Source: Solobacterium sp. (lineage in GTDB: Bacteria > Bacillota_I > Bacilli_A > Erysipelotrichales > Erysipelotrichaceae). From it: a DNA stretch of 46,902 nt. The notes below the pieces were generated by a model that did not search any database, was not told the origin of the DNA, and worked only from the letters and a program-made list of their open reading frames with translations. Shown here piece by piece: positions 23,005 through 25,671 of the stretch. How positions within the stretch are numbered: position 1 is the stretch's first letter; each line of letters opens with the position of its first letter. The position numbers and the translations under genes are program-made. Location: assembly GCA_017433125.1 (NCBI GenBank), contig JAFRHT010000067.1:1-46902 (forward strand), in the 5' to 3' direction.

Positions 23005-23014
23005 CCGGTAAAAT

Positions 23015-23047
23015 GTGAAAAGGCCTTCCGGCCTTTTCATTTCATTT
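23015..23047 (+). terminator. Rho-independent terminator of the alpha/beta hydrolase gene
   Basis: GAAAAGGCC, a TTCC loop and GGCCTTTTC form a 9-bp stem followed by ATTTCATTT, 12 nt past the stop codon. Confidence 0.85.
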
Positions 23048-23169
23048 ATAGGGGATAGAATCTGAATCATCTGCTAAAGGGGGAGCAGTGTTCAGGGCAG
23101 ATCTTATCTGCATCTGCATGATTATAGTACCAATGCCATGCCGCAGAAATACGGCAGGATTATGGAAAA

Positions 23170-23191
23170 ATATGTGATAAATATCATATAT
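23170..23191. repeat. 22-bp palindrome, candidate operator
   Basis: ATATGTGATA and TATCATATAT flank an AA centre; nine of ten positions in the arms pair. It ends 21 bp before the -35 box of the recombinase-like gene, a position suited to an activator or upstream repressor. Confidence 0.5.
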
Positions 23192-23212
23192 TGGAATATC
23201 AATTTTTATTTA

Positions 23213-23242
23213 TTGACAAGTCATTTTATGATAAGTTATAAC
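23213..23242 (+). promoter_or_regulatory. Strong sigma-A-type promoter of the recombinase-like gene
   Basis: A perfect TTGACA (23213-23218) is followed after 17-18 bp by TTATAA/TATAAC (23236-23242). The predicted start leaves a leader of about 33 nt with TGGAGG before the ATG. This is the only perfect -35 box noticed in the window. Confidence 0.75.
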
Positions 23243-23282
23243 TGTTAAACAGAATCAAACAGCAACAAAGAATGGAGGCCCT

Positions 23283-24272
23283 ATGAAAAATCATCTGCCG
23301 TCCGGTCTGGATGACTACCAGTGGAATACGCTTCTGGCCGACATGAAAAAGCGGCCGTCAACCGTAAATGATTATCGTAAAGTGCTGAATCTGCTCCATG
23401 CGTATGAGGGCGGAAAATATCATATAGCCACCATGACAGCGGCAGATGCGAAGGAATATTTTGACTATCTGGACCAGCGGGTCAGTGATGGTTCCATGAG
23501 TGTGCGTACGTCACACCGGTATAAGGCAACCCTCCGCAGTATTGCCGCGCGGATGGAAGCCCACCCGGAACTGTTCCCGGACTATGTCAACCCGTTCCGG
23601 CGGCTGATCAAGGGCGAACTGCGGAACAAGACCCAGTATGTACCGGAGATGTTTGCCCGTCCCGAAACCATCGAAATGCTTCAGGCTGTCCTGCCGGAAC
23701 TGCCGGCCAATGACGCCCTGATCCTTGATATGATGATCCACATCGGCTTCTCGCCGATCCAGATCCAGAACTTGCAGGTCAATCACTTCCAGACCCTGCC
23801 TGACGGCCGGCTCTCTCTGCAGGGCAGGGACTCTGACGGATCCGTGAAAATCTTTGAATTCACCGAAGATTTCAGCCGCCGCCTGCGGGAAAAGATTCCC
23901 ACCCTCGGCCGCAACCGTGACCGCCGGTCCTTCTTCATGACCGCCCGGCATCTGGAATATTCGCACCGGGCCCTCTACCACATGTTCCGGGAAACCTGCA
24001 AGGCTGCCGGCATTGACACATCAATGCTGACCCCGCGGCAGGTGAGCCTGTACGGACGGGTGCACTCCTGGCTACTGCTGGAAACAGCCGGCCGTCTGCA
24101 GAGTGAAGAACTCAGTACTGAAGAGCGGTGGGACCTTGAAGAAAAAATGGCCAGGCTGCTGCCGGAACAGGTCGGCCGCTGGGCAGATCCGTGTCCGGCG
24201 GAACTGACCGGGCAGATCAATGCCATCAAAGCCCAGCTGGGGGATGACTACCTCTGGAAGATAATCGGGTAA
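23283..24272 (+). CDS. Degenerate tyrosine-recombinase (phage integrase)-like protein
   Basis: The 329-residue protein has the layout of a tyrosine recombinase. An N-terminal SAM-like helical domain (about residues 15-100) begins with PSTVNDYRKVLNLL, and a C-terminal domain begins with a DALILDMMIHIGFSPIQIQNLQ segment that aligns to core box I. The catalytic residues are missing: the box I arginine is replaced by Ser157, the 'HxLRH' box is replaced by TPRQVSLYGRVHSW (251-263), and no nucleophilic tyrosine box follows. It is full length with no frameshift, which argues for a retained non-recombinase role, perhaps DNA binding. TGGAGG precedes the start. It stands alone between terminators. Confidence 0.7.
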   Translation: MKNHLPSGLDDYQWNTLLADMKKRPSTVNDYRKVLNLLHAYEGGKYHIATMTAADAKEYFDYLDQRVSDGSMSVRTSHRYKATLRSIAARMEAHPELFPDYVNPFRRLIKGELRNKTQYVPEMFARPETIEMLQAVLPELPANDALILDMMIHIGFSPIQIQNLQVNHFQTLPDGRLSLQGRDSDGSVKIFEFTEDFSRRLREKIPTLGRNRDRRSFFMTARHLEYSHRALYHMFRETCKAAGIDTSMLTPRQVSLYGRVHSWLLLETAGRLQSEELSTEERWDLEEKMARLLPEQVGRWADPCPAELTGQINAIKAQLGDDYLWKIIG

Positions 24273-24290
24273 CAGCCCGGTTTTTCTTTT
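24265..24290 (+). terminator. Terminator overlapping the stop codon of the recombinase-like gene
   Basis: ATCGGG, a TAACAG loop that contains the TAA stop codon, and CCCGGT form a six-pair stem, followed by TTTTCTTTT. Confidence 0.7.
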
Positions 24291-24293
24291 CCG

Positions 24294-24317
24294 CAAAAAA
24301 AGAGGATTCCTCCTCTT
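24294..24317 (-). terminator. Rho-independent terminator of the CpXC operon
   Basis: On the minus strand AGAGGA, a GGAA loop and TCCTCT are followed by seven T residues. It begins directly at the stop codon of the CpXC gene. Confidence 0.85.
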
Positions 24318-24958
24318 CAGGCAGTTCCTTCACTCGGCAGGAACAGGCTGGTAATCCAGGCGCTGTTGATGACCGGGATCGTTTCGTTGTCCACTTCATA
24401 CCGTTCCGGATTCTGTGCCATTTCCTCCTCCAGCATCTGCAGCGGGATCAGGAACGCCATGCCGCGGTCATCCGTACGCACGTTGATTTTCATGACATCG
24501 TTTTCCGTCTTCTGGTATTCCACGGAGGTGACATCCTCCGCTTTTCCTTTTTTGTTGTCAATGAATTCGATGAAACAGTCATATTTAGCCAGTTCCACCA
24601 TGACATCACTGACCCCGTCTTCCAGGATCTGGATCTTCTCCGCCATCTCCGCCAGCGTCTCACAGCGCCGCAGGACATAGCCCTGTCCGGTCAGTGGCTT
24701 TGTTAGGCCTTTCAGCATTTCACCCGCATCCTGGGTGCTCAGCCACAGCAGGAAACGGTGCTCATTGTCGATATAGACCAGCGGGTACTGGATCATGAAG
24801 TCCTTCTTGCAGTGCGGGCAGGACACCCGGAACAGATCGCCGCTGACCACCCGGTCCCGCAGTTCCCGGTCGGCCGCGTTGACAGCTTCGCAGATATCCG
24901 CTTCAAATTCCCGGCCGCAGTACGGGCAGGTGTATTTCACCGTTTTTGTTTCGTTCAT
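24317..24958 (-). CDS. CpXC domain-containing zinc-binding protein
   Basis: This 213-residue protein begins with the CpXC domain: CPYCG near residue 10 and SCPHCKK near residue 50 make the two zinc-binding CPxC knuckles, followed by a FMIQYPLVYIDNEHRFLLWL strand that is typical of the family. The C-terminal half (DVTSVEYQKTENDVMKINV, then a segment ending NSAWI) is less conserved. The function of CpXC proteins is unknown. It starts 8 nt after the stop of the 234-residue hypothetical gene, so the two are co-transcribed and may act together. Confidence 0.85.
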   Translation of the reverse strand: MNETKTVKYTCPYCGREFEADICEAVNAADRELRDRVVSGDLFRVSCPHCKKDFMIQYPLVYIDNEHRFLLWLSTQDAGEMLKGLTKPLTGQGYVLRRCETLAEMAEKIQILEDGVSDVMVELAKYDCFIEFIDNKKGKAEDVTSVEYQKTENDVMKINVRTDDRGMAFLIPLQMLEEEMAQNPERYEVDNETIPVINSAWITSLFLPSEGTA

Positions 24959-24966
24959 GTTGTCTC

Positions 24967-25671
24967 CTAGTTCTTCAAGGTCGGGGTGCTGAAGCCGAAG
25001 CCAGCCTCATCCCCCGTTCTGATCAGTTCTTTCAGCGCTTCCTCGTCTTCCTGCGACAGCATACTGCCGGCAAAGACCGTCAGCAGCCTGGTTTCCTTCC
25101 CGGTGTGGTACGGCAGCGCCCGGAACAGTTCGCCCTTGTGCAGTCCCTGCACCATGTCCGGCTCCTCCGCCAGGCGTCCCTCCGCGAATGGGCCGTTGAA
25201 AGACACCAGATTCATCGGATATTCCTGAATGCCTGCGGTTGTCAGAACCCCGGTCATGACCGTGTCCGGATAGACCGGATCCCGCACCGCATCCAGCCGC
25301 GGATCCATGCGGGTAAACCAGAGCTCCGCGTCGGTCCAGGCTTCCTGCTGTTTCTGCCAGGGAGCGTTCTTACGGGCCATGGTCAGATCCGGTTCGATAA
25401 ACTGCACTTCGCATTCCTGCACCTGCCAGTATTCATAGAGCCCCAGCATGGCTTTGCGCCGCAGGCCCCGCCGGCAGTGCTCCGCCGCATCACCGACTGC
25501 CAGGACATTGAAGGTCAGCCGCCGGTTTTCCGCCACGTAGCACGAACACAGCACAAAACAGTCCTCATCCCGGATGGGCAGGACATCCTTCAGCTGCTCC
25601 GTCAGCGAGTCCGCTTCCAGAATCATATAGCTGTGATAATAATCACGGAATCCGTACTCTTCCAGCCGCAT
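24967..25671 (-). CDS. Hypothetical protein co-transcribed with the CpXC gene
   Basis: This is a 234-residue soluble protein of no recognised family. Notable segments are a cysteine cluster DCFVLCSCYV near residue 40, a basic stretch RRGLRRKAMLGLYEYWQVQE, an NLVSFNGPFAEGR core, and an acidic C-terminal region. No signal peptide or membrane helix is seen. AAGGAGAATCG precedes the ATG, and an extended -10 TGC-TATATT (25690-25698) gives a leader of only about a dozen bases. As first gene of a two-gene unit with the CpXC protein, it may be its partner, but that is inference. Confidence 0.7.
   Translation of the reverse strand: MRLEEYGFRDYYHSYMILEADSLTEQLKDVLPIRDEDCFVLCSCYVAENRRLTFNVLAVGDAAEHCRRGLRRKAMLGLYEYWQVQECEVQFIEPDLTMARKNAPWQKQQEAWTDAELWFTRMDPRLDAVRDPVYPDTVMTGVLTTAGIQEYPMNLVSFNGPFAEGRLAEEPDMVQGLHKGELFRALPYHTGKETRLLTVFAGSMLSQEDEEALKELIRTGDEAGFGFSTPTLKN

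Follow-up and report, generated by a model that had tools for sequence, protein, structure and literature searches.

A catalytically degenerate tyrosine recombinase-like gene divergent from a predicted small RNA gene in Solobacterium sp.

We analyzed a 46,902-nucleotide stretch of Solobacterium sp. DNA, here called the window (contig JAFRHT010000067.1 of assembly GCA_017433125.1, positions 1 to 46,902). The genome belongs to a genus filed as Solobacterium sp./Lactimicrobium (Erysipelotrichaceae), and its nearest named relatives are ruminant-gut Solobacterium sp. MAGs and Lactimicrobium massiliense. In the window, a gene for a tyrosine recombinase (YR)-like protein lies between a conserved, predicted small RNA (sRNA) gene, from which it would be transcribed divergently, and a gene for a CpXC-domain protein. 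The features are:

23015-23040, no strand assigned: terminator hairpin (AAAAGGCC..GGCCTTTT) forming the sRNA 3′ end on the minus strand, also located after a convergent hydrolase gene
23018-23115, minus strand: predicted sRNA of ~100 nt, divergent from the YR-like gene (conservation, covariation, G-U strand bias)
23121-23126, minus strand: TATAAT, −10 element of the sRNA promoter, conserved in position
23143-23148, minus strand: TTCTGC, −35 region of the sRNA promoter, with a 16-nt spacer
23149-23177, no strand assigned: three direct repeats, ATACGG/TTATGG/ATATGTGA, WalR/VicR/PhoP-like, just upstream of the sRNA −35 region
23170-23191: imperfect palindrome (9/11 pairs) overlapping the last direct repeat
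23213-23242, plus strand: putative promoter of the YR-like gene, TTGACA (23213-23218), 18-nt spacer, TATAAC (23237-23242)
23274-23278, plus strand: GGAGG, Shine-Dalgarno sequence of the YR-like gene
23283-24272, plus strand: YR-like gene, catalytically degenerate tyrosine-recombinase fold, 329 aa (open reading frame, profile and fold matches); core-binding domain at residues ~25-95, catalytic-like domain at ~121-329
24263-24282, plus strand: intrinsic terminator at the end of the YR-like gene
24317-24958, minus strand: CpXC-domain gene, convergent neighbor, co-inherited with the YR-like gene

The CpXC gene and an adjoining minus-strand gene for a 234-aa protein with no Pfam match occupy 24317-25671. 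Beyond this pair lie Bax-inhibitor-like, ThiF-like, MiaA, and MutL genes; together, all of these genes form a conserved chromosomal block.

An initial annotation, made from the letters of the window, had described an intact gene, free of frameshifts and stops, whose product keeps the layout of a tyrosine recombinase. Both points held. The reading frame at 23283-24272 is open and intact, and the protein matched a PHROG integrase (E 1.3e-10) and a XerA model (E 1.2e-5) in profile searches. A SAM-like N-terminal domain scored below the cut-off (E 0.005), and SAM-like Pfam matches were obtained for 16 of 24 family members. The PF00589 matches of the source genome do not include the protein. Judged from these profiles, it is a remote YR that sequence libraries recognize only faintly.

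Structure prediction and comparison with Xer proteins, which the initial annotation had proposed as a check, gave a concordant picture. An AlphaFold2 (AF2) model built from 24 homologues (pLDDT 88, pTM 0.65) has a two-domain YR layout, with both a SAM-like core-binding domain and the catalytic-domain fold. Its top Foldseek matches in the PDB were XerA, Tn1549 Int, Cre, XerH, and XerD, with E-values from 4e-7 to 1e-3 for XerA, Cre, XerH, and XerD. The low global TM-scores (0.3-0.4) probably reflect a different placement of the two domains. Like XerA, XerC, and XerD, the group with its best fold and profile matches, the protein has two domains and no arm-binding domain. Unlike in them, no catalytic position of box II or the Tyr box survives in its family, and the C-terminal third is family-specific (IGxW...YP...D.I).

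The catalytic defects that had been read from the single sequence, namely Ser157 at the box I arginine, a lost HxLRH box, and no visible tyrosine nucleophile box, are all present. The HxxRH box reads R252-Q-V-S255-L256, and the LGH...Tyr box is absent. The same positions are degenerate throughout the family. In the 24 aligned members, the box II His is always lost (N, Y, R, M, or K instead), as is the box II Arg (S, A, Y, or T instead), while the box I Arg is lost in 22 and kept in two; no member has a nucleophile Tyr box, and there is no conserved C-terminal Tyr. Alignment with XerA puts the degenerate columns onto the catalytic ones, and the signature of active tyrosine recombinases, R...HxxR...H/W...Y, was not found in any of the 24 members. 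Intact R-H-R-Y residues elsewhere in the protein, an outcome named beforehand as evidence against domestication, did not appear in the homologue alignment. At the sequence level, the loss of these residues shows that the predicted protein can no longer cut DNA. Four nearly invariant residues of unassigned role remain (R215, R222, H223, and R229), and these might belong to a re-arranged, still active catalytic site. Such a site would lack an invariant C-terminal Tyr, as position 304 is Y, F, C, or L across the family, and we consider this explanation highly improbable.

The genus was represented by 70 genomes, 31 of which have a homologue of the YR-like protein. In other sampled genera of the family there was none, apart from an ordinary XerD in G174 (E 6e-8), so a search for intact close relatives in other genera ended with this single match. 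Collections of phage and viral sequences (50,697 phage records; IMG/VR) likewise held no relative, and a phage origin was rejected. For seven close pairs and two methods, dN/dS was 0.04-0.21, far from the value near 1 that would have spoken against domestication; the gene is under purifying selection. None of the 24 members carries a frameshift. The YR-like gene adjoins the convergent CpXC gene in 17 genomes, and the distance matrices of the two proteins agree (Mantel r 0.90, equaled in 0 of 2000 permutations). Together, these data show that the gene has been kept by selection through vertical descent at a conserved locus.

These results bear on whether the gene is a decaying integrase that a mobile element left behind, as its missing catalytic residues and patchy distribution in the genus (31/70) could imply. 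A decaying gene is hard to reconcile with the low dN/dS, the absence of frameshifts, the fixed locus, the co-inheritance with the CpXC gene, and the lack of relatives in phage and viral collections; we give this reading very little credence. The initial annotation had called the gene domesticated and not decaying, and the family-wide catalytic loss and the dN/dS values bear this out; vertical inheritance also fits. On the protein, that annotation was right, and on stronger grounds than its author could know.

The core-binding domain is the best conserved part of the protein, with a mean top-residue frequency of 0.70 versus 0.53 in the catalytic-like domain, and contains the invariant residues D30-Y31-R32-K33, H78-R79-Y80, and R85. 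This pattern suggests that the protein is maintained, probably for DNA binding. Since ordinary XerC/D-type recombinases are present elsewhere in the source genome, it is not the housekeeping Xer. It could instead serve an architectural role or help maintain the chromosome, for instance as an inactive partner to the active Xer recombinases: its closest folds are XerA, XerH, and XerD, and the intact Xer-type proteins of the genome are available as partners. However, the gene is missing from over half of the genus, which would be unusual for a chromosome-resolution factor, and we regard this role as quite improbable.

A precedent for the function we favor is MrpR (YopR), the master repressor of the Bacillus phage SPbeta, which has a YR fold, has lost recombinase function, and represses by binding operators (PMC10516654). 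Its core catalytic Arg and His residues are replaced by Ser, Val, and Asn; it keeps K169 and Y304, is prophage-borne, and binds the 15-bp SPBRE motif (PMC10516654). The YR-like protein resembles MrpR in being a dead YR fold of about the same length, and MrpR (8bj6) is among its Foldseek matches. Unlike MrpR, its family is chromosomal, vertically inherited, and without the Tyr. Comparison by hhalign revealed no sequence relation (E 0.59 for the single sequence; E 0.044 and probability 1% for an 8-member profile), so membership in the MrpR/YopR family was rejected and the YR-like family works like MrpR at most. By analogy, the protein most likely acts as a regulator, binding specific DNA in a transcriptional or architectural role as MrpR does. 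The authors of the MrpR study proposed that tyrosine recombinases may have become transcription factors more frequently than had been assumed (PMC10516654). At the genome level, the YR-like family is a second candidate for such recruitment, unrelated to MrpR in sequence and located on the chromosome instead of in a phage. Its evolutionary history clearly documents the loss of catalytic residues in a gene under strong purifying selection.

The DNA upstream of the gene required a different interpretation. The initial annotation had assigned it a strong promoter flanked by a near-perfect 22-bp palindrome, containing the only perfect TTGACA noticed in the window. TTGACA occurs 41 times in the window, compared to 23 ± 5 times in shuffled sequences. 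The combination TTGACA-18-TATAAC is nonetheless a reasonable candidate for the promoter of the YR-like gene, and a 95%-identical relative (L009) has the same hexamers. The palindrome is complementary in only 9 of 11 pairs. Counting it, nineteen 22-mers of the window score at least as well, shuffled local A+T-rich DNA matches its score in 4% of trials, and it is conserved in the closest relatives only. Being weak and poorly conserved, it was rejected as an operator of the gene. The signals that are conserved upstream are a divergent sRNA promoter and direct repeats, both kept where the gene is missing, and the palindrome-flanked promoter fails as a description. The gene had also been described as bounded by its own terminators. 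This is true downstream (24263-24282); the upstream terminator (23015-23040) is not its own, as it is flanked by the convergent hydrolase gene and the minus-strand sRNA and can serve both. Within the annotated range, roughly a third of the DNA upstream of the gene (23048-23118) belongs to the sRNA gene.

When the upstream regions of the homologues were aligned, a strongly conserved stretch emerged that begins at the upstream terminator and ends ~100 bp short of the start codon. Within it, the predicted sRNA consists of a 5′ hairpin, a hairpin with loop GCUCCCCCUUUAGC, a single-stranded AUUCUAUCCCCU, and the intrinsic terminator. We aligned window positions 23011-23118 with their counterparts. 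As a covariance model from a plain MAFFT alignment (R1, 4 pairs) was poor, we used a second model, R2. Across 40 sequences, 94.3% of cells were paired, compared to 38-53% with slid partners; the pairing counts are flattered by an alignment fitted to the structure, but relatedness is preserved in the slide control. Compensatory (two-sided) changes occurred in 19 of 26 pairs, and none of 500 shuffles reached these values. G-U cells outnumbered A-C cells (57 versus 20; 33 versus 5 in the terminator), favoring the minus strand as the transcribed one. In other species the −35 element is TTGACC or TTGACT.

The sRNA thus combines compensatory structure with its own promoter and an intrinsic terminator, and no downstream gene is conserved beside it. 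A cis-acting leader was rejected because the downstream neighbor differs between species, and a small open reading frame because loop lengths vary by non-multiples of three across species, leaving no conserved frame. Rfam covariance models gave no family match in the window and six relatives (RsaE and csRNA included). The sRNA is present in 64 of 70 genomes of the genus, usually once, and in 32 of 71 genera sampled across the order, including many other Erysipelotrichaceae genera. We predict that it is a regulatory, structured RNA family, absent from Rfam, that spans much of the Erysipelotrichaceae, a large family of gut and rumen Firmicutes.

Some genomes carry more than one copy. In other Erysipelotrichaceae genera, copies occur in tandem or in multiples (L200, L210, and L211), each with its own promoter and terminator, and one genome (G157) has up to five. 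Two genomes from another genus carry an intact XerD-like gene with the sRNA immediately downstream of it (L243, 3635-4516; L248, 2983-3873; numbered so that the sRNA is on the minus strand). This placement is probably a coincidence, yet it involves the same protein class as the dead recombinase.

The three direct repeats span roughly −40 to −62 relative to the sRNA promoter. They keep a fixed distance from the sRNA 5′ end, and their spacing is identical in 44 loci, whether or not the YR-like gene is present. In the orientation of that gene, the genus consensus is TTATGT-N5-TTATGT-N4-TTATGTGA, with a period of 11/10; the third copy, at 10-bp spacing, is the most conserved. The first two copies resemble the WalR/VicR site, TGTWAH-N5-TGTWAH (PMC4168254), matching at least 10 of 12 positions in 27 of 44 loci versus 0.4% of shuffles, and exactly in several species. 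The repeats of L131, TGTAAACATTATGTTAA, have the same hexamers as S. mutans nlmC. Unlike WalR/VicR sites, the sRNA promoters add the third repeat, and the window's own repeats score 7/12, with a degenerate first copy (2/6 matches to WalR). From the arrangement, we infer that an OmpR-family response regulator, for instance WalR/VicR, would bind here, with WalR itself as a lead. The repeats also resemble Pho boxes (TTHACA-N5). This assignment is unlikely, as the source genome lacks Pst (no PstB above the cut-off) and the three-repeat pattern was not enriched over control in a Pho regulon test.

A pattern search found further copies of the repeats in G005, G007, and G028, fronting C-rich, terminator-ended RNAs, which suggests a small sRNA regulon. 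These three-repeat elements lie at ~1360 in L240 (G028), ~1190 in L241 (G007), and ~1300 in L242 (G005), and the RNAs behind them are paralogous or analogous to the sRNA at 23018-23115. Similarly, the CiaR-dependent csRNAs of streptococci are short intergenic RNAs with an intrinsic terminator, located behind hexamer-N5-hexamer repeats (PMC8186281). Our sRNA shares with them its small size, intergenic position, terminator, preceding direct repeats, and occasional multiple or tandem copies per genome. It differs in its repeat motif, which is TTATGTNA-like and not TTTAAG, in having no Rfam match, and in occurring in Erysipelotrichaceae. Because of the response-regulator-type repeats, the idea of a csRNA-like regulon can be tested directly in species available in culture, Lactimicrobium massiliense among them.

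The relationship between the YR-like gene and the sRNA is less direct than their proximity might suggest. Where upstream DNA was available, the two are directly divergent in 29 of 30 loci (26 with full and three with shortened forms of the RNA), the exception being the G050 locus. In three species without the YR-like gene, the slot is empty and the CpXC gene comes directly after the sRNA, at a distance of 60-87 bp; in others, unrelated genes lie between them. Since the sRNA, its −10/−35 elements, and the three repeats are unchanged in species without it, the YR-like gene occupies a variable slot beside an older RNA gene. Because other species have unrelated genes in this slot, or leave it empty, a functional link is not proven by adjacency alone. 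The conserved upstream DNA, read from its sequence, is mostly this RNA gene with a response-regulator-type promoter, and had been mis-assigned to the promoter of the YR-like gene; that promoter begins ~35 bp beyond the repeats.

The YR-like protein might still regulate both the sRNA and its own gene through the intergenic region, as in OxyR/OxyS or GcvA/GcvB. The divergent adjacency of the YR-like gene and the sRNA persists even where the CpXC neighbor is missing, and one YR footprint per helical turn could suit repeats of 10-11 bp. However, the repeats, their spacing, and the promoter are equally conserved without the YR-like gene, the repeats front other sRNAs too, and in G050 the gene is located away from any sRNA. 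We therefore consider such regulation unlikely, and because the repeats persist without the gene, we rejected iterons of the YR-like protein as their main reading. Joint control of the divergent C-rich sRNA by the dead YR family and a response regulator at a shared intergenic operator is a rather doubtful extension; if true, it would make the locus a dead-recombinase/sRNA regulatory pair. We found no regulatory targets of the YR-like protein and no motif specific to genomes with its gene.

Our preferred reading, to which we assign a probability of roughly 0.6, is that the slot holds a dead YR-fold, DNA-binding regulator, while response-regulator-type repeats drive a divergent, trans-acting sRNA. 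The strong conserved signals of the shared intergenic region would drive the sRNA, with an OmpR-family response regulator such as WalR/VicR acting on the three hexamer repeats; the YR-like gene would use its own promoter and may share control by the repeats. The gene may have an additional layer of control in a subgroup with longer proteins (L012, L014, L016, L017, L023, L025, and L034), where a leader with AAGAAAGGAAAA is followed by a hairpin and then the start codon. The hairpin arms appear to co-vary (TACAG/CTGTA, TTCAG/CTGAA, ATGCGG/CCGCAT), suggesting translational control. The leader and hairpin also occur in L034, a locus without the sRNA.

The sRNA most likely acts in trans, its exposed C-rich motifs pairing with G-rich ribosome-binding sites. 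A search of four genomes for AAAGGGGG-N3-9-ATG yielded a single target shared by more than close pairs, rpsU, in two of the genomes. In these two distant species, G003 and G058 (L256 and L277), the ribosome-binding site of rpsU, which encodes ribosomal protein S21, is AAAGGGGGG and complementary to the sRNA loop, making rpsU a possible target.
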